Of a DNA stretch of 26,605 bases, positions 1 to 23,030 are shown one piece after another. Made by a program: the position numbers and the translations under genes. The notes under the pieces were generated by a model. That model saw nothing but the letters and a program-made list of their open reading frames with translations, did no database searches and was not told the origin of the DNA. The DNA is from a virus: positions 1 through 26,605 of the IMG/VR virus record IMGVR_UViG_3300044940_000698; one strand, 5' to 3'. Each line of letters starts with the position of its first letter. The stretch's first letter is position 1.

Positions 1-675
1 GTGCTGCCAGATAGTATTAAGCAAAAAAGATATCGTCAGGATTTTAGAACTAGATTCTGCGAAGGCTTGTTATCAAGAAGGGTATTAATTGCGGAGGGAG
101 AGACCGAAACTTCAGCAATGCCAATTGCGGCTAGACGGTTATCTGAACTCAAGCCAGAGGATTATACCAGTTTTGAGGCGCTCGGCATTTGCATAATTAA
201 TGCGGGCGGCGAGACAAACATTCCAGATTTCTCCAGCTTTTATAAAAGTCTAGAGAAGCGGGTGTTCGCTGTTTGTGACAAGCAAACTGATGCTCATAAG
301 GATAAAATAGAGAAAACTGTAGAAAAGCTGTTTATGCATGATGAAGATGGCTTCGAACAGCTTGTTCTAAAGGGAACCACAAAGGTAGCCATTGATAGAT
401 TTATTGATGTATTGGAATGGCCACAGCACTTAAAAACGAAATTCCCAGATCCAAAATCTGATCCCGCAAACGCCTTAATGGATTATTTTTCCTGGTCTAA
501 AGGGAATTGGGGAATAGCTGACTTTTTGGCTCAGTGCGATGAAACTGAAATCCCTGAGTGGATCAAGAATACCTGCAGCAACGTACGGTCATTGTGCGAA
601 AGTGTTCCTAAAAAGGCATTAGAAACTTCACAATCCGAAATTGAGGCTATCGTAGATGAAGACAGTCTCGTTTGA
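1..675 (+). CDS. gajA: Gabija GajA, OLD-family nuclease, C-terminal part (cut by window edge)
   Basis: This is the C-terminal TOPRIM half of an OLD-family ATP-dependent endonuclease; the N-terminal ATPase lies outside the window, so the GTG at position 1 is not the true start. Visible features are the TOPRIM glutamate in LIAEGETE (about residues 30-37), a Gly-rich stretch IINAGGETN, and the acidic motif VFAVCDKQ around residue 93. In Gabija, GajA is a nicking endonuclease that cleaves phage DNA once nucleotide inhibition is lifted, and it works with GajB. The identification rests mainly on the overlapping downstream UvrD-like helicase gene (20-nt overlap), which is the standard gajAB arrangement. 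An OLD nuclease of another class is possible but less likely given the partner. Confidence 0.85.
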   Translation: MLPDSIKQKRYRQDFRTRFCEGLLSRRVLIAEGETETSAMPIAARRLSELKPEDYTSFEALGICIINAGGETNIPDFSSFYKSLEKRVFAVCDKQTDAHKDKIEKTVEKLFMHDEDGFEQLVLKGTTKVAIDRFIDVLEWPQHLKTKFPDPKSDPANALMDYFSWSKGNWGIADFLAQCDETEIPEWIKNTCSNVRSLCESVPKKALETSQSEIEAIVDEDSLV

Positions 676-2494
676 TTTATCTGATGATCAAAAACAAATA
701 ATTGATGCCGAAGGGCACTTGTTAGTTGTTGGCGGTCCTGGTTCCGGCAAAACAACAGTATCCATCTTAAAGGCTGAGAAAATCGCTACGCAACTGAAGC
801 CTGGGCAAAAAATTCTTTTTCTGAGCTTTGCACGCGCAACAGTTTCCAGGGTGATTGAGGCGATAGAACAGCATTCGGGAATGACCAAGCAGATAAAAGA
901 AAAAATTGAAGTTGATACTTATCACTCATTTTTCTGGAAAATCGTTAAAACGCATGGATATTTAATCGGTTTGCCAAGAAGAGTTTCTATTCTTACTCCA
1001 CCTGCTGAGGCAGTTGCGTTATCTGCCATTCGTCATGAATATAAGGCCGAATCAAAATTAACTGCCGTGCAAAAAGAAGAAAAACACCGCAGATCGCATG
1101 AAGAGAGAATTCGCCTAGCAAATACGGAAGGCAAGTTGTGTTTTGACTTATTCGCAAATTATGTTGTGGAAATCTTAAGCGGAGGCAACAAGATTAGACA
1201 GCTAATATGCACAGCTTATCCCTATATCGTATTAGATGAATTTCAGGACACAAGTGCTGAGCAATGGAATGTCGTAAAATCCTTAGGTAAACATAGCACA
1301 CTAATATCTCTTGCTGACCCCGAGCAGAGAATTTTTGATTTTATAGGTGCAGACCCAGAGAGATTAGATCATTTCAGGGCAGAATTCTCTCCTGAAGAAT
1401 TTGATTTGCGAGATGCCAATCATCGCAGCCAGGGAACTGACATTGCGATATTTGGCAATGATATACTCAAAGGTCAGTATCGTGATTCCTATAATGGAGT
1501 TGAGTTCAATACCTTTAACTCAAATCAAAATCAGGCTTTTGCAACTTTGAAGGGCCACACTCTTCAGGCTAGAAAAAGGCTTATTGATGCTGGAAAACCA
1601 GATTGGTCACTGGCAATTTTAGTGCCTACAAAAAGAATGATGCGTCAAGTATCAGACTCATTCAGGATAAAACAGACATCCTTGCCCGCTATCCGTCATG
1701 TCGCTTCTATAGATATGCATGGTGCAATATTAGCAGCTGAGATACTGGGCTTCTTTCTGCAGCCAAAAAAAACATTTAATGATGAGCAGTACTTCATAGA
1801 ACTGATATGTAGTTTTTTTCAGGGTAAAGGTGGAGAAGCACCGTCAAAAAAGGATATTACAGAAGCATCGAGTATTAGAAAAGCATACACTAAGGCATTG
1901 CAATGTCGTGCATCAGGCAAACCTTTCCCAAAAAAGAGCATAATTATTGCGATCCTTGACGTGTATAACACTGCTCGCCAGATAATTTTGTCTGGAGATC
2001 CTGATGCAGACTGGATTGCGGCGCGTAGTACGCTAGAGGAATGCTCATGCCCTCGGTTAAAACAGGTGGCAGAAGAAGCTCGTAATTTGAGACTCTTGAA
2101 CCGTGGCACTCAGCTACGAGAATCATTATCCCAATGCTGGCGTGATTATGGCGCTTACGCAAATGCATTAGATATTGTTAGGAACTCGTTTATTCAGGAG
2201 CATTTTGCCACAGCTAATAAACCAGAAACTGGTGTGGTAATTATGAATATGCATAAAGCAAAAGGTAAGCAATTCGATGAGGTGATAATCTTTGAAGGTT
2301 GGCCGCAGGTAGTTAGAGGAAAAATCGTTAGTAACTCAGACCGAATTGTAAGAGGAAATTCAAAAGAGCAAGATTTAACCCATTACCGGCAAAACTTTCG
2401 AGTCAGCGTTACGAGAGCGAAGTCAAAAACAACAATATTAACACCAGCAAACGATCCGTGTGTACTGCTGATTGCAAATGATATGGATGTTTAA
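656..2494 (+). CDS. gajB: Gabija GajB, UvrD-like SF1 helicase
   Basis: A 612-residue superfamily 1 helicase, the second Gabija component, which senses or processes DNA ends and activates the GajA nuclease. Motif I is GGPGSGKTTV (about residues 27-36), the DExx box is VLDEFQD (about 212-218), motif III is LADPEQRIFDF, motif V is MNMHKAKGKQFDEV, and motif VI is FRVSVTRAKSK near the C-terminus, so all core motifs are present and the gene looks intact. The ATG overlaps the gajA end by 20 nt, with a GAGG about 10 nt upstream, consistent with translational coupling. Its TAA stop overlaps the stop of the convergent phage gene in the palindrome TTAA. It is AT-richer than the phage genes to its right. 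Confidence 0.88.
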   Translation: MKTVSFDLSDDQKQIIDAEGHLLVVGGPGSGKTTVSILKAEKIATQLKPGQKILFLSFARATVSRVIEAIEQHSGMTKQIKEKIEVDTYHSFFWKIVKTHGYLIGLPRRVSILTPPAEAVALSAIRHEYKAESKLTAVQKEEKHRRSHEERIRLANTEGKLCFDLFANYVVEILSGGNKIRQLICTAYPYIVLDEFQDTSAEQWNVVKSLGKHSTLISLADPEQRIFDFIGADPERLDHFRAEFSPEEFDLRDANHRSQGTDIAIFGNDILKGQYRDSYNGVEFNTFNSNQNQAFATLKGHTLQARKRLIDAGKPDWSLAILVPTKRMMRQVSDSFRIKQTSLPAIRHVASIDMHGAILAAEILGFFLQPKKTFNDEQYFIELICSFFQGKGGEAPSKKDITEASSIRKAYTKALQCRASGKPFPKKSIIIAILDVYNTARQIILSGDPDADWIAARSTLEECSCPRLKQVAEEARNLRLLNRGTQLRESLSQCWRDYGAYANALDIVRNSFIQEHFATANKPETGVVIMNMHKAKGKQFDEVIIFEGWPQVVRGKIVSNSDRIVRGNSKEQDLTHYRQNFRVSVTRAKSKTTILTPANDPCVLLIANDMDV

Positions 2495-10106: not shown

Positions 10107-10346
10107 ATGGCCAAGACACTGATTTGCAAAGCCTGTGGTCACATGGGCAAACCGGCACGGAAGACGAAGGGCAGTCTCCTGATTGAGATTGTCCTGTGGA
10201 TTTGTTTTATCGTTCCCGGCTTGGTCTATACGCTGTGGCGTTGCACCACGCGGTTCAATGCCTGCAAGAAATGTGGTGGTATCGAATTGGTGCCAGTCGA
10301 TTCCCCCATCGGGCAGAAACTGGTTAGCGAGCACCATCCCGCCTAG
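10107..10346 (+). CDS. small zinc-ribbon membrane protein
   Basis: A 79-residue protein with CKAC near residue 7 and CKKC near residue 53, forming a split two-CxxC zinc ribbon on either side of one membrane helix (LLIEIVLWICFIVPGLVYTLW). Proteins of this layout are common small accessory genes of unknown function. It is inserted antisense between the DUF2163 and DUF2460 tail genes and leaves both intact. Its TAG stop overlaps the TAG stop of the DUF2460 gene in the palindrome CTAG. It has its own promoter with no leader. Confidence 0.75.
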   Translation: MAKTLICKACGHMGKPARKTKGSLLIEIVLWICFIVPGLVYTLWRCTTRFNACKKCGGIELVPVDSPIGQKLVSEHHPA

Positions 10347-10927
10347 ACGCGCACCTCGATCAGCGGAATGTTGTTCCAACTACCGGCGTTGAAGCTATCC
10401 ATCGAAAGCCCCAGCTCGTCTGTATCGAACCGCACCGGCACATCAAATTCGAAATCCACCGTGAGCGTGCCGGTATGGGTGGTGGTGATGATGCCGGTGG
10501 CCGTGTCCACGCTCCAGCCGCTCACTTGCAGAATGCTGTTTTTGTAGAGCTTCACCGTGCCAGCGACCGGCTTACTGATAATGCGCTCCGACACCACCGC
10601 ACCGCTGACATACCGCTTCACCAGCTGGTATTCATCGCCACCGAGCGATTGCAGCGGCTGGTTCACTGCTTTGAAGTCACTCCAATCCTTGAAGCGAAAT
10701 CCCACCGCCTTGCCACGCCGCGCACGGAAGAAGGCAATCAGCACCTGCCATTGCGTTTCGGTTTTAACGCCGGAGGCGGCGTTATACCGCGCACGCGCTT
10801 GGCTCCATTTGCTGTTGCGTTGTTCATGCCCGGATACAGTGGTAACCACATCTGTCATAAACATCGGACCGCCATTCGCGCCATAGCTGATGTCGCTTGG
10901 GAACTGGGTTTCTACGAAGCTTGTCAT
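10343..10927 (-). CDS. DUF2460 tail protein
   Basis: A 194-residue DUF2460 protein (ORFg12-like distal tail component of GTA-like siphophages). Signatures include SDISYGANGGPMFMTDVVT at the N-terminus, RARYNAASGVKTETQWQ, FFRARRGKAVGFRFKDW and the C-terminal FNAGSWNNIPLIEVRV. I chose the ATG at 10927 because family similarity begins at MTSFVETQFPSDI; the upstream reading runs into the hairpin repeat region. The ribosome binding site is weak (GGAA, 9 nt upstream). It appears intact. Confidence 0.88.
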   Translation of the reverse strand: MTSFVETQFPSDISYGANGGPMFMTDVVTTVSGHEQRNSKWSQARARYNAASGVKTETQWQVLIAFFRARRGKAVGFRFKDWSDFKAVNQPLQSLGGDEYQLVKRYVSGAVVSERIISKPVAGTVKLYKNSILQVSGWSVDTATGIITTTHTGTLTVDFEFDVPVRFDTDELGLSMDSFNAGSWNNIPLIEVRV

Positions 10928-10986
10928 GTTGATATTCCAAATAGTTAAAGCCCAAACGTTAGAGTTTTGGCTGGAAAGGCGGCAAA

Positions 10987-11322
10987 GAATGAGTGAAGAA
11001 TGTGTAGATATGTCGGACCATCTCCACACATCATTCCGCTGAAAATCCCTTTATTCAGGTCAATTCAGCGGCGTTTTTCGGAATGAGTGAAGAACGTATG
11101 TAGATGTCGGACCATCATCATACATTCTTTGGCAAAGCCGCCTGAGCGAGAAAAAGCTGGCTGATTTGTCAAGAACGTATCGGGATGAGTCGATATATCG
11201 GACCACCTCTACACATTCTTTCGAGGTTTCTTGCTGCAATGGGCATATTCGTCGAGTTAGCTGCAGGAATGCATGAGAATAAGTCGGAATATGTCAATAT
11301 GTCGGACCATCACTACAGATTC
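10987..11322. repeat. four-copy imperfect hairpin repeat array between tail genes
   Basis: Copies lie at 10987-11036, 11081-11127, 11171-11218 and 11267-11322. All share the core ATcGGACCA within ATGTCGGACCATC, an AT-rich 5' arm beginning GAATG or GAAC, and a 3' arm ending in ATTC. Core-to-core spacing is 94, 91 and 104 nt. Copies 1 and 2 fold well: TGTG pairs with CACA in copy 1 and TATG with CATA in copy 2, a compensatory change. Copies 3 and 4 are more diverged. The array fills the 385-nt gap between the tape-measure remnant and the DUF2460 gene, and the tape-measure TAG stop lies in copy 4. No gene was found in the gap on either strand. Confidence 0.8.
11036..11078 (+). terminator. stem-loop in the spacer between repeat copies 1 and 2
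   Basis: CCGCTGAA (11036-11043) pairs perfectly with TTCAGCGG (11064-11071), with a 20-nt loop, followed on the plus strand by CGTTTTT. It has the shape of a plus-strand terminator, although the long loop weakens the case. Confidence 0.35.
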
Positions 11323-12071
11323 CTCCGCGCCCGTTCCATTTGTCGTGCCATATCCGCTGCAATCTGGCTTTGGCTTTGCCGGAAACTGCGAACATCGGGT
11401 GTTTGCACACTCATGTTGATGGTAATCGGCGCACCACCTGCCATGGCTTGATTGGGCAGGATATTGAGTGGGGAATTTCCTGCAAATGCCAGCTCAGGCC
11501 CGCGTTCGCCAACGACACCGAACTGCCCTGGCTTCAGCTTGCCACCGTCAGCGAAGAATCCGCCGAAGAAGTTGCCGACGCTGGAGAGTAAACCGCCAAA
11601 CCCGCCACCCGATCCACCGCTGCCACCGAATAACCCGCCGATAGAGCCGAAGATATCATCCATAAAACCACCTTTGCCAGTGATTCCGAGATTCTTCAGT
11701 GCGCTGTTGAGCAAGGCGCGGTTAATGTCGGATAGCATGCCTTTAAAGAAATCGCCGAAGCCATCGAAGCGTCCGCTGATTGCGTCCAGTGAGTCGGCAA
11801 TCGTGCCTTCCATGGTTTCGCCGATGCGAGAAAATTCATCACCAATCGTTTCGCCCGTTTTCTTAGTGGCATTTTCCATCTTCTGGTTTGCCTGTTCTAC
11901 GGCACGACCAAAGGTTTCCTGATTGATGTAGCCTTTCTCCAGCAGCTGGTTGAGCTGCGTCATCTCCTTGTTATAATTTTCCAGCGGCGTGCGCGTAGCA
12001 TCGATGATGCGCTGCGCTTCCTGCTGGAGCTTGTTGAACTGCTTGGTGTATTGAAATATACTTGAAGACAA
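11313..12071 (-). pseudogene. tail tape-measure protein, only the C-terminal part remains
   Basis: About 245 residues of the C-terminal part of a lambda-type tail tape-measure protein. Visible are the helical region with ATRTPLENYNKEMTQLNQLL and GYINQETFGRAVEQANQ, the Gly-rich segment (GGLFGGSGGSGGGFGG), the FADGGKLKPGQFGVVGERGPE motif and the terminal QSQSQIAADMARQMERARRNL, all typical of the end of this family. Phage-like sequence begins at about 12047; the eight residues before it come from AT-rich cassette DNA. Most of the ruler domain and the preceding tail-assembly chaperone genes are missing, so no normal tail could be built. Confidence 0.88.
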
Positions 12072-12096: not shown

Positions 12097-12654
12097 ATGA
12101 GTGATGATAAATATATTTACGCTGGGATTGCTTCAATCATAGCCGCAGTAATTACTTTAGCGGGAGCTTTACTGAGCGTTTGGGTAACTAATAGGGCAAA
12201 CTTAAGGCGCATAAAATTAGAACAAGATTATCAAAAAACAAAAGATACAAAGGCTTTTCTTACAAGCAAAGCGGAAGAATTATATGAATTAACCGAAAAA
12301 TGGTTTATTAGTTTATCTGGCTATTATCTTAACTTATCTTTTGTTATGCAAGGAAAAATAACTTATAATGATCATTTGGATTGGATTATAAAGCAAAATA
12401 CGGATGAGATTAAGTTTTATCGTATAGAAATGATAATCAGTCTTTACATTCCTCACTTAAAAAATTGTTATGAAGAAATCATAAAATCTCGCAGTGTATT
12501 GAATGAAATACATAGAAGATATAAAAAAGACTATGAACAGGGATATGCTGATGGTTCAGCATATTTAAGAGATTATGTTTCTGCTCAACATCATATAGAA
12601 AAGCATTTCGAAGATTTCAAACAAAAAATCGCAGCATTTGTAAAATCTATTTAA
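12097..12654 (+). CDS. single-pass membrane protein of unknown function
   Basis: A 185-residue protein with a short acidic N-terminus, one membrane helix (about residues 8-30, AGIASIIAAVITLAGALLSVWV) and a long charged, helical cytoplasmic domain rich in Lys, Glu, Tyr and Ile. I recognise no named family. The design of one N-terminal helix plus an all-helical domain recurs among small membrane effectors and sensors in defence islands, but that is only an analogy. It is strongly AT-rich, has no Shine-Dalgarno sequence, and replaces the 5' part of the tape-measure gene. A convergent 44-residue membrane peptide lies beyond its 3' end, separated by a perfect inverted repeat. Confidence 0.72.
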   Translation: MSDDKYIYAGIASIIAAVITLAGALLSVWVTNRANLRRIKLEQDYQKTKDTKAFLTSKAEELYELTEKWFISLSGYYLNLSFVMQGKITYNDHLDWIIKQNTDEIKFYRIEMIISLYIPHLKNCYEEIIKSRSVLNEIHRRYKKDYEQGYADGSAYLRDYVSAQHHIEKHFEDFKQKIAAFVKSI

Positions 12655-12724: not shown

Positions 12725-12776
12725 GGTATCCACATACCGAAAAATTGCTCTTCTATTTTCTCGGTATGTGGATACC
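12725..12776. repeat. perfect 16-bp inverted repeat
   Basis: GGTATCCACATACCGA (12725-12740) and its exact complement (12761-12776) flank a 20-nt loop. It lies 70 nt after the membrane-protein stop and 9 nt after the stop of the convergent small gene, so a bidirectional terminator is the simplest reading. There is no T-run after either arm, so a protein-binding or recombination site is also possible. Confidence 0.85.
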
Positions 12777-14687: not shown

Positions 14688-14939
14688 ATGCAAACAGTCT
14701 CTTCAAGCGAAGCCCGCAACAATCTTGCGGCCATGCTGGATAAAGCCCAACATGAGCCTATCGCCATCCAGAAGCAGGGCAGAAAAGCCGCTGTTCTCGT
14801 GTCCTATGAAGAATACGAGCGGCTAACCAATGCTTCCGCAGCCGCGTTTCAGGCGATTTGCGACACGGTAGGAGCAAAAGCGCAGTCCAGAGGATTGACC
14901 GAAGAAAAACTCGCGGAGATTCTGGCTGAAAATGACTAA
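14688..14939 (+). CDS. Phd/YefM-family antitoxin
   Basis: An 83-residue antitoxin. The N-terminal Phd/YefM DNA-binding fold is clear (SSSEARNNLAAMLDKAQHEPIAIQKQGRKAAVLVSYEEYERL), and the C-terminal 35 residues should form the flexible helix that neutralises the toxin. There is a strong ribosome binding site (GGAGG, 7 nt before ATG). It overlaps the toxin gene by 8 nt, which is typical of this module class. Base composition is closer to the phage genes than that of the other cassettes, so it may have a separate origin. Confidence 0.9.
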   Translation: MQTVSSSEARNNLAAMLDKAQHEPIAIQKQGRKAAVLVSYEEYERLTNASAAAFQAICDTVGAKAQSRGLTEEKLAEILAEND

Positions 14940-15354
14940 TTCCAAACTCCGCGTTATCCTCGATATCAATCTACTGATAAGTCTTGCTCTCACGCCTCAT
15001 TCCGTGACAGCCAGTGCGGTTCGCATGATTATCGACCATTGCCACCTGCTGGTATCACAGGCGACCATGGATGAATTTGCGACTGTTCTGAACCGCATCC
15101 AGACAAAGGGCTTCATTAAGCAGAACGAAGCTCTTGCACTGATTCATGCTTATAAGGAACTGGTTGAGTGGGTTCCCATCATTGAGCATGTAAAAGAGTG
15201 CCGTGACCCGAAAGACGATAAGTTCCTCGAACTCGCCGTAAATGGCAAAGCTGAATACCTTATCACTGGCGATCAGGATTTACTGGTACTTCACCCGTTC
15301 AGAGACACTAAGATTCTTACCACCAAAGATTTTATCGACTTACTCCTCACTTAA
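14932..15354 (+). CDS. PIN-domain toxin (putative ribonuclease)
   Basis: A 140-residue PIN-domain protein of the putative toxin-component family paired with Phd-type antitoxins. Acidic residues for metal binding are visible: ILDINLLIS near residue 10, the Glu in MDEFATVL near 43, DPKDDKFLELA near 93, and LITGDQDLL near 112. It is expected to cleave RNA, its activity being held by the antitoxin made from the overlapping upstream gene. Its TAA stop overlaps the TAA stop of the capsid remnant in the palindrome TTAA. The gene looks complete. Confidence 0.88.
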   Translation: MTNSKLRVILDINLLISLALTPHSVTASAVRMIIDHCHLLVSQATMDEFATVLNRIQTKGFIKQNEALALIHAYKELVEWVPIIEHVKECRDPKDDKFLELAVNGKAEYLITGDQDLLVLHPFRDTKILTTKDFIDLLLT

Positions 15355-18128: not shown

Positions 18129-19958
18129 TCAGTTAAAATTCCAATCGTCGTAGCCCATCCACTGGCTGGGCTTCTGCGTTTCCTGTTTCTGTTCTTCGCG
18201 CTGCTGCAGGCGGTCGCGTTCCTGTTGTTTTGCCAGCGCATCGAGGTTTGGATTCAGGATGTGCAGCGCCGCCAAACCGTAAACGCGACAATCCAGCGCC
18301 TCATTGCGTCGGCCTTTCGGAATCACCCAGACGCGGGTGGGATGGCCGTTCACAAATCGTGTCTGAATGCGCTCCGAGGTGAGTTGCTTGAAGTATTCCT
18401 CCGGATATTCCGCAGGGAAATGGCAGTAACCTGGCCCCGGCTGGTGGATTCTCAGCCGTGAGTAAATCATCTGTTTCGCTGTGTCCGTGCCGATAGAAAA
18501 CAACTTCACGCGCAGCTTGTTGGCTTTGCTGAATTTGCTCACCAGCGGTTTGCCGATCTGACTTGCGCCCTTGATCGCATACACGCGCTGATGCTCACGG
18601 TTCTTGCAGAATTCATAGACTTTCTGCGTGTGATGGCCGCCCGTATCCACGCACATGCAGGCAATCGCCAGCGTGCGCCCATCGGTGGTTTTGATCGTCT
18701 GGTTCAGCACCGCATCAAGGTCTTCCCAGACTTTCGTCTGAGCGGGGTCGCCATGCAGCACATGGTATTGCAGTGACCAGCTTTCCTGCCCAATGCCCCA
18801 GCCGATGACTTCCACCTCCAGCCGGTCACCCTGAACATCCACGCCAGAGGTAATCACCACAGCGCCTTCCGGCGCGATGCGTCCCCAGTTTTCCTTGCGC
18901 TTCAGCAGGCCATTCGGGTCGATGCCTTCGGTCGCTTCCTTCCAGGTTTCACCAAGGCTGGTATTCACCCAGACTTTCAGTGTTTCAGGCAGGCGCTTGG
19001 CTTTCATGAAGCCCACGACCATATCGGACCATTTCACCCATGGGCTATACAGCTCCGATATATGAAATCCGGCAATGCCGTTGAATGCCGCTTCCGCACG
19101 CCATTCGCCACGCGCCAGCATCCAGATTTTATCGCTCTCCTGCAGTTTGGCCTGACAATGCTCGCATTCATAATGCGTGCTTTCAGGTTTCAGCTTGTCG
19201 AACTTTACCTGCGCCCAGAACAGCACCTGAAAGGTGCCACACTCAGGGCATGGCACATAAAATCTCCGCATATCGCTCTGCTGGTAGCGCGATGCAATCT
19301 TGCTTTCACCCTCATTGGTCGGCGTGGAGGCCGTAACCAGAAGGCGGTTCCAAAACGTCGTGGTGCGCTTCTGCGCCAGCGAGCCGGGGTCACCCTCGGT
19401 GCCAGCCGAGTGCGGATAGCGGTCTTCTTCATCCAGAAGCACTATCCGCACCGGCCTGCTTGCCAGCGACGAAGGGCTGTTGGCTCCCGCCATGGTGATA
19501 TGACCACCGGGGAACTTCTTGTGCAGCAGCGTGTTGTTGCTGTCCCGGCTGCGCGGGTCTTTGAACAACTCCATCAACACATCCGTATCGCGGATCATTG
19601 GTGCAAGACGGTCTTTGCTCTAGGTCTCCGCCATATCCAGTGTCGGCTGAATCAACAGCATGGGCGATGGGTCTTGGTGCGCGAAATAGCCGAGGATATT
19701 GTTAATAATTTCCGTCTTGCCCACCTGCGATGAGGTCATGAACACCACCTCAGACACGCCCGGTTCATTCACGGCATCCATCATGCCGCGCTGGTATGGC
19801 GCACGGTCAGTCACCCATTTTCCGGGTTCGCTGCTTGCCTCTGGGCTTAGGCGGCGATGCTGATCCGCCCACTGGCTCACTGTCAGTTCCGGCGGTGGCA
19901 TCCATGCCGCCATCGCTGTCTTCGTCATCTGCGGATATGTCTTCGTCGTCGGGTTCAT
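18129..19958 (-). pseudogene. GpA-type terminase large subunit with in-frame TAG
   Basis: A phage DNA-packaging motor of the GpA family, otherwise full length at about 608 residues. Visible are the adenine-binding start PPPELTVSQWADQHRRLSP, Walker A FMTSSQVGKTEI, Walker B VRIVLLDEEDRYP, motif III TASTPTNEGESKI, a zinc ribbon (CPECG..CEHCQ) and nuclease residues in GVDVQGDRLEVEVIGWG and CVDTGGHH. Codon 113 (19620-19622) is TAG where MAETxSKDRLAPMIRDT calls for Trp, a single-base TGG to TAG change. Both halves are in the same frame. Without suppression the gene is dead. A sequencing error is the main alternative. Confidence 0.85.
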
Positions 19959-20406: not shown

Positions 20407-20516
20407 TGTAACACTCTCATTTTATTCGCATTTGTTGCTGCTAATTGACTTGATTGACCTCCCGATTGAAGCATTCATGGCCATGGTAAAAACTTAACCA
20501 AACCAAGGAGATAACC

Positions 20517-20960
20517 ATGACCGCCATGACCCTAAGCAATGCCCAGCAACGCGTGCTGCAGGAAGCTGCCAGCGCACCCGAAAGCCCGATTGAATCTTTT
20601 ATCAAAACCATGCCAGCAGGAGCTCAAGGCCTGATGCTGAAAGCACTGGAGCGCAAAGGCTGCGTTGAAGCACGCGGCAACGCGCATTTCATCACTGCAA
20701 CGGGATGCAACGCGGTGGGACACACCGCAACACCAAGCGTTGAACCGAAACGCGAAAGCAAACAGGCAGTGATTATCAACCTGCTATCCCGCGAAGGTGG
20801 AGCGACACTCGCCGAACTCATCGCAGCCACCGAATGGAAATCCCATTCCGTGCGCGGCCATCTCTCCAACCTGCGGAAGAAGAGAGGGATGAATATAACC
20901 AGCGAGCGCCTTAACAGTGAGAATCGATATTTTCTTTCTCAGCCAGATGCATTGAAGTAG
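20517..20960 (+). CDS. DUF3489 protein
   Basis: A 147-residue DUF3489 protein, a small helix-turn-helix-like family common on alphaproteobacterial mobile elements. The signature lies in the C-terminal half: SKQAVIINLLSREGGATLAELIAATEWKSHSVRGHLSNLRKK..MNITSERLNSENRYF. The N-terminal half resembles a degenerate second copy. There is a strong ribosome binding site (AAGGAG, 8 nt before ATG). It runs divergently from the terminase genes. The last 8 residues (LSQPDALK) may derive from the neighbouring cassette, whose convergent gene overlaps it by 50 nt. Confidence 0.82.
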   Translation: MTAMTLSNAQQRVLQEAASAPESPIESFIKTMPAGAQGLMLKALERKGCVEARGNAHFITATGCNAVGHTATPSVEPKRESKQAVIINLLSREGGATLAELIAATEWKSHSVRGHLSNLRKKRGMNITSERLNSENRYFLSQPDALK

Positions 20961-21769: not shown

Positions 21770-22951
21770 TCATCTAGATAAACCAACAATCTTAGGCAGC
21801 ATCTCCGCAAGGAAGGTTTCCAGATTTACCATCTGGACGCCGTCCTTCGTTGGGTAGGATTCACCTGATTCAGAGATAACAAAACTCTGCTCTGGCTCTA
21901 CATCCTTGATCACTTCAAAAAACCCTTTCGAGATTCCGGCTCCCTGGCTGCGCTTGATTTCCGCGCAGTAGCGTTTGCCATTTGGGGCAACCAGTATTGC
22001 GTCGCTTTCCGCACCTTTATGCGTCCGATAGAAATAGATTTTACCCTGACCTCCAGAACATCTGCGTATTTGCTCCAGCACATAGCCTTCCCATGAAGCG
22101 CCAACGGCTACATGCCCCAGCAACTGCTCCGTATCCTGAATCCCCAGCAGGTGATGCAGTATGCCGGTGTCACGCAAATACAGCTTCGGCTGCTTCACCA
22201 GCCGTTTACTGATGTTTACAAAATAGGGCTGCAATCTCGTGATAATAAATCCACCCTCCAGCAGATCGAGATAACGGCTAACTGTTGGTACACTCACACC
22301 AAGAGCGCGGCTCAAATCGCTCTGGTTTAATATCTGCCCGTGCAGGCTTGCTATCATCTCCAGCATTCGCGTAACAAGCGGTGGCGATATCTGATGCCCT
22401 AACTCCTGCAAATCTCGCTGCACAAAGGTTTCAGTGAATGATTTCAGCCAGCGCTGAGCATGAGCAGGATTCCCTGCAAGCATGGCCTGCGGAAATCCTC
22501 CAAACAACCAGTGGTGATGCAGTGAAACCGTTCCTTTTGCTTCCAGCCACGAGAACGGGGTTAGCTCGTTATACGCAATGCGCCCCGCCAAACTTTCAGA
22601 ACTGCCCTTAATCATCTCCGGTGAGGCAGAGCCGAGCAGAATGTAGCGCCCAGGTCTGCGATCCATATCAACCAGAGCACGAAGCAGAGCAAACAGCTCT
22701 GGCATGCGTTGCACTTCGTCAATCACGACGCATTTATCCTGATGGTATTTCAGGTACGTTTCCGCATCTTCGAGCTTTCTGCGATCCGCATCCAGTTCAA
22801 GGTCAAGATAGATGCTCTTTGCATCATCCAACTGCGCGATGATATGCTTTGCCAGCGTTGTTTTTCCAGCCTGACGCGGCCCGACAATCCCCACCACAGG
22901 GAAATATTCAAGGTCTTGTAAAATCTGTTTTATGGCATGACGTTTTAACAT
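21770..22951 (-). CDS. AAA_14/DUF4143 ATP-binding protein
   Basis: A 393-residue ATPase. Walker A is GIVGPRQAGKTTLAKHI (about residues 22-38), Walker B is CVVIDEVQRMPEL (about 74-86), and the sensor region is ILLGSASPEM. A winged helix follows (LSRALGVSVPTVSRYLDLLEGGFI), then the DUF4143 domain with SWEGYVLEQI and a PD-(D/E)xK-like arrangement, GAESDAILV..KRYCAEIKRS. The family is common in accessory regions and its function is poorly known; a nuclease-like domain tied to an ATPase is compatible with defence. It lies on the minus strand, in the same direction as the phage genes, unlike the other cassettes. It has its own strong promoter and a downstream partner gene. Confidence 0.88.
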   Translation of the reverse strand: MLKRHAIKQILQDLEYFPVVGIVGPRQAGKTTLAKHIIAQLDDAKSIYLDLELDADRRKLEDAETYLKYHQDKCVVIDEVQRMPELFALLRALVDMDRRPGRYILLGSASPEMIKGSSESLAGRIAYNELTPFSWLEAKGTVSLHHHWLFGGFPQAMLAGNPAHAQRWLKSFTETFVQRDLQELGHQISPPLVTRMLEMIASLHGQILNQSDLSRALGVSVPTVSRYLDLLEGGFIITRLQPYFVNISKRLVKQPKLYLRDTGILHHLLGIQDTEQLLGHVAVGASWEGYVLEQIRRCSGGQGKIYFYRTHKGAESDAILVAPNGKRYCAEIKRSQGAGISKGFFEVIKDVEPEQSFVISESGESYPTKDGVQMVNLETFLAEMLPKIVGLSR

Positions 22952-22999
22952 ATCACCATATTACAACGGTGAAGTCTTAAAGTCAAACCTTAAGACTTC
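22952..22999 (-). promoter_or_regulatory. strong leaderless promoter with flanking palindrome, for the DUF4143 ATPase
   Basis: On the minus strand TTGACT (22981-22986), a 17-nt spacer and TAATAT (22958-22963) form a near-consensus promoter that ends exactly 6 nt before the ATG at 22951. The inverted repeat GAAGTCTTAA/TTAAGACTTC (22971-22980 and 22990-22999) brackets the -35 box and is a likely operator. Confidence 0.75.
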
Positions 23000-23030
23000 T
23001 ACCTTATTTTATGGTCAATAATCACCTAAT

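Follow-up and report, generated by a model that had tools for sequence, protein, structure and literature searches.

A four-copy palindromic repeat in the cargo slot between two prophage tail genes, most likely a degenerate repeat element

The window, i.e. the whole stretch of 26,605 nt that was analysed, apparently represents a defective mosaic prophage with alphaproteobacterial kin; the closest prophages sit in MAGs labelled Rickettsiales or Alphaproteobacteria. Plus-strand cargo genes are interspersed among minus-strand structural genes. An in-frame stop between 19598 and 19620 splits the gene for the large terminase (18129-19958, minus strand). Of the head genes recognised by position in the kin prophage L158, most are replaced, and the tape-measure gene, which ends with its stop at 11313, lacks its N-terminal part, homology to kin spanning 11313-12047 only. 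It is these three features that make the prophage look defective. Several defence-like genes were also observed. A Gabija-like pair at 1-2494 (plus strand) consists of the C-terminal part of GajA, truncated at the window start, and a complete GajB (PADLOC, 5.8e-73 and 1.5e-229), and an ATPase encoded at 21770-22951 (minus strand) matches the PADLOC candidate defence family PDC-S01 (1.4e-88). Another cargo slot (14688-15354, plus strand) contains two overlapping ORFs, which by eye have the look of a Phd-type antitoxin and a PIN-type toxin.

The tape-measure ORF and the tail gene for DUF2460 are separated by four related palindromic copies of 45-50 bp (Table 1). The first-pass annotation had placed this array inside the tail operon. 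It does lie between tail genes, but solely as an insertion, as the two genes abut in relatives. In kin L004, L007, L157 and L158 the slot is empty, and the stop of the tape-measure gene and the start of DUF2460 overlap (ATGA); in kin L005, L008-L012 and L155-L156 it carries other genes, which, judged by eye from their translations, encode a putative membrane protein, a Fic-domain protein or a pair of HTH and Fic-like proteins. Since the slot is empty or differently filled in kin, it is a cargo slot, and the array is one of its occupants. The final tape-measure codons lie in the left arm of copy 4 and are also found in kin without the array, indicating that this part of copy 4 is older than the insertion. 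The DUF2460 gene stands out as a DNA island (10347-10930) with 92-94% identity to the nearest kin, whereas the flanks on either side are only 76-80% identical. The comparison therefore suggests that this small gene, a single tail gene between two cargo slots, was recently exchanged, one boundary of the exchange lying at or close to the array. In the same slot of kin L012 (4742-4841), repeats of about 10 nt resembling AAATGGATAT cluster ahead of a Fic-domain gene; these are perhaps operators.

Table 1. Features of the slot between the tape-measure and DUF2460 genes
Feature	Position	Strand	45-nt interval in repeat search	Remarks
DUF2460 tail gene, downstream of array	10343-10930	-		PF09343, 5e-64
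Inserted segment in slot	10931-11312			absent in kin
Copy 1	10987-11036	-	10987-11031	hairpin core 10997-11034; covariance model 55.9 bits
Spacer 1, hairpin CCGCTGAA...TTCAGCGG	11034-11083			fold z -4.20
Copy 2	11081-11127	-	11081-11125	hairpin core 11091-11128; covariance model 53.9 bits
Copy 3, palindrome AAGAA...TTCTT	11171-11220	-	11172-11216	core 11182-11219; covariance model 51.8 bits
Copy 4, weak hairpin	11281-11323	-	11276-11320	overlaps final codons and stop of tape-measure ORF; covariance model 56.4 bits
Tape-measure gene, C-terminal part, upstream of array	11313-12071	-		TMP_3, 6.6e-7, under curated cut-off

The copies are diverged to different degrees, copy 2 being 82% identical to copy 1, copy 3 64% and copy 4 67%. 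All four share a single orientation, and the repeat search reproduced the core spacing of 94, 91 and 104 nt given earlier. The description of four diverged copies with a constant loop core was likewise confirmed: in a minus-strand alignment, which is gapless across 38 nt, the core TGGTCCGA was invariant in all four copies while the stems varied, and each copy was recovered from the other three, a three-copy matrix scoring the left-out fourth copy at 20.7-28.9, compared with a top score of 11.9 across 20 dinucleotide-shuffled versions of the whole window. Exact occurrences of TCGGACCA numbered five in the window, four of them within the array. Copies 1 and 2 start with GAATG and end with CATTC, copy 3 is bounded by AAGAA and TTCTT, and in copies 1, 2 and 4 the motif GTCCGAC is palindromic around its central base. 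The window contains no fifth copy. The four-copy repeat is certainly genuine and beyond chance.

RNA folding of the individual copies against shuffled sequences gave z values of -3.29 for copy 1, -4.38 for copy 2 and -2.42 for copy 3; the hairpin of copy 4 (z +0.32) was no better than shuffled sequence. The whole segment, read on the minus strand, yielded a z of -3.96. Folding energies on the minus and plus strands were -18.0 and -11.0 kcal/mol for copy 1, -15.3 and -8.7 kcal/mol for copy 2, and -16.3 and -8.7 kcal/mol for copy 3. The minus-strand hairpins of these three copies are more stable because imperfect stem pairs are there more often G-U than A-C (six versus two). This bias towards the strand of the tail genes lends mild support to pairing at the RNA level, but is suggestive only (n=8, one-sided binomial about 0.14). 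The first-pass annotation had also reported a compensatory change between copies 1 and 2 as pointing to selection on structure. The pair itself is real (GC to AU, columns 8 and 31 of alignment A2), but total covariation was within the range of shuffles, with two doubly changed pairs compared with 1.6 in shuffled alignments and 266 of 500 shuffles as high, in a comparison of four sequences that has low power. This pair is not enough to establish selection on structure, a claim that depends on one or two doubly changed pairs and is not supported statistically. A scan for promoter-like or terminator-like sites found none in the array, Rfam 15 gave no covariance-model match at gathering score in the window, and a tRNA/tmRNA search returned nothing at the array.

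Sponge RNAs of the CsrB/RsmZ type are arrays of hairpins, and the plus-strand loop of the present array contains GGA. Pairing, however, favours the minus strand, on which the loop reads GUCCGA and has no GGA, and the array differs from such RNAs further in having neither promoter nor terminator. A CsrA sponge on the plus strand was rejected, as the strand bias points the opposite way.

The spacers between the copies were said to contain inverted repeats in two cases. This holds for spacer 1, while the remaining two spacers showed no strong hairpin (z -0.7 and +0.2). The spacers are mutually unrelated (shuffle p 0.15-0.91) despite the 82% identity of copies 1 and 2, indicating that the element of 45-50 bp was multiplied and not a tandem unit of 94 bp. 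We infer from these sequences that the element itself was the multiplying unit, by insertion or recombination.

Further copies were sought with a covariance model (R1) built on the four copies, which scored its own copies at 52-56 bits. This search, which had been proposed as a check on the array, yielded no further copy in related phages or bacterial genomes. Nothing comparable was found in 34 other loci, mostly kin prophages, and no copy in six genomes carrying kin prophages, which do not include the array's own host. The best scores were 24 bits in 385 Alphaproteobacteria and 27 bits in 344 genomes of the order of G001 (the order of G005 gives the identical set), searches over 40 genomes using stricter filters, so that weak relatives could be missed. 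The 27-bit match (L204), located just downstream of an apparent tRNA gene, was attributed to chance at 344 genomes searched. Pattern scans of IMG/VR with the loop and one arm, with the left flank and with all invariant columns returned only chance matches to the loop that lacked the stems and hence the full hairpin, the best of which scored 22.3 bits. Blastn against phage and plasmid records gave no match. The few weak blastn matches in genomes (58-385 searched) were judged to be chance and had the look of coding sequence; by eye, L190 resembles the end of a ribose-5-phosphate isomerase B gene and L313 an alpha/beta hydrolase. A scan of IMG/VR with tape-measure peptide patterns found no relative, the short patterns being too specific.

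The array was compared with known palindromic elements. REPs are extragenic palindromes of 20-40 bp with an unpaired GTAG or CGTC tag at one stem end, the CGTC tag being typical of Alphaproteobacteria, and roles in mRNA stabilisation and transcription termination have been proposed for them (PMC3733652). The array resembles REPs and BIMEs in consisting of short imperfect extragenic palindromes that are clustered, with structured and variable spacers (PMC3733652, PMC2817692). Its hairpin core of 38 nt between two genes agrees with REPs in size and location, with copy 4 overlapping the tape-measure stop and folding weakly. No REP tag was present at the stem feet, however: GTAG occurred solely inside the arms, and there was no CGTC at the feet. 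The array also differs from BIMEs in that its four copies share one orientation, and from REPs and BIMEs in being located in a prophage, with high copy number not seen. Among the genomes with kin prophages, none of which is the array's host, the Y1 transposase (RAYT, PF01797) was absent in G001-G004 and G006 and present in G005.

Rickettsia palindromic elements (RPEs) have 100-150 bp and are distributed genome-wide, and members of some families sit within genes in frame (PMC3767692, PMC10969869). Like them, the array is a palindromic insertion in an alphaproteobacterial context, and several MAGs of the nearest kin are labelled Rickettsiales, but its copies are only 45-50 bp long, occupy one intergenic slot and have reading frames with stops. 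No convincing match was obtained in the 344 genomes of G001's order. As the tag of REPs is missing, and size and genome-wide spread are unlike those of RPEs, membership in either family is not claimed. The array resembles MITEs as a small non-coding element with terminal inverted repeats (PMC10969869), but its terminal repeats are only about 5 bp long, with GAATG/CATTC found in copies 1 and 2 only. Comparison by eye with the junctions in kin revealed no target-site duplication, and no parent transposon was identified. A CRISPR-like array was rejected by eye, as the repeats are too diverged and no cas gene was present among the inspected ORFs. An integron attC array was not supported by eye, there being no recombination-site core.

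The four-copy palindromic repeat is unclassified, and a degenerate repeat element is its most likely explanation. We give a probability of about one half to the reading of the array as a small degenerate cluster of REP- or MITE-like palindromic repeats in a prophage cargo slot. The sharp limits of homology, the unrelated spacers and the slot being empty in kin support this reading. A palindromic element would have inserted into the slot between the tape-measure and DUF2460 genes and multiplied there. Since the array lies within minus-strand tail genes, it is probably transcribed by read-through, and copies 1-3 would then form hairpins in the tail mRNA. By analogy with intercistronic REPs, such hairpins could stabilise the upstream tape-measure message and lower its coupling to DUF2460. 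A mobile repeat is expected in many copies per host genome, and the lack of extra copies in the genomes searched, among which the array's host is not included, argues against a repeat element. The conserved loop also speaks against a purely parasitic repeat, as it could mean a binding site. Of the option put forward earlier, a host palindromic repeat that multiplied here, the multiplied repeat thus fits best, while the attribution to the host is not shown because no copy occurred in the six kin-prophage genomes or the broad samples of Alphaproteobacteria.

The main rival to the repeat element is a functional RNA. According to this explanation, the array is a structured RNA or a set of four modular RNA hairpins, which either forms a non-coding cargo gene or exerts its effect within the tail mRNA; a protein or complementary RNA would bind the GUCCGA hexaloop. 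The invariant TGGTCCGA loop region among variable stems, the three strong hairpins and the stronger pairing of the minus strand, on which the whole segment also folds well, are consistent with it. Covariation, however, was not significant, copy 4 folds poorly, and no promoter- or terminator-like site, Rfam match or relative was found, and we regard a structured RNA as rather unlikely. The more specific proposal of prophage-borne non-coding cargo whose four hairpins with invariant GUCCGA loop act in tail mRNA or as a decoy RNA appears slightly less likely still. It is also doubtful, and a little more so, that the array is a set of binding sites at the DNA level (operator, recombination or packaging-like) centred on GTCCGAC, with the hairpin incidental to an inverted-repeat site. 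The palindromic GTCCGAC of copies 1, 2 and 4, the regular spacing of the four sites and the coincidence of the slot with the apparent exchange boundary at DUF2460 would fit such sites, but their spacing does not follow a common multiple of the helical turn, they are not adjoined by a gene for a regulator or recombinase, and kin have exchanged the same slot without the sites.

Two further explanations concern the origin of the repeats. Tandem duplication of a unit of about 94 bp followed by neutral decay of the spacers would account for the shared orientation and similar spacing, but is already disfavoured and improbable, as no residual similarity of spacers was seen even beside the 82% identical pair. 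It is very improbable that the array is what remains of a protein-coding, internally repetitive cargo gene. The copies are similar in a minus frame (KECMMMVRHLHTFF, CVEMVRHIYTFF, KECVEVVRYIDSS and EESVVMVRHIDIF), but lie in different frames with stops, and neither strand holds a frame across copies. The differences between copies 1 and 2 are mostly amino-acid changing (codons compared by eye), a homologous intact gene was not found, and there was no Pfam match, one read giving 0.086, which is below the cut-off.

If the array is a repeat element, a small palindromic family not described so far would have entered a phage cargo slot beside an apparently exchanged tail gene. Should it prove to be a functional RNA, the slot, which holds only protein genes in the kin seen, would here carry non-coding cargo, and the array would offer a compact system to study hairpins in late phage mRNA. 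Nothing beyond one locus was found, and structural selection is not demonstrated.

Other inverted sequences were observed in the window. The stretches 2784-2869 and 20432-20520 are inverted relative to each other and 74% alike, and span the leaders and start regions of two divergent ORFs; they are possibly a shared regulatory leader. An inverted repeat of 29 bp (76%) with a gap of 3 nt is located between ORFs at 22955-23015. The strongest hairpin in the window is formed by a 20-bp inverted repeat (95%) at 12725-12776, downstream of the plus-strand cargo gene 12097-12654, and is probably a terminator.
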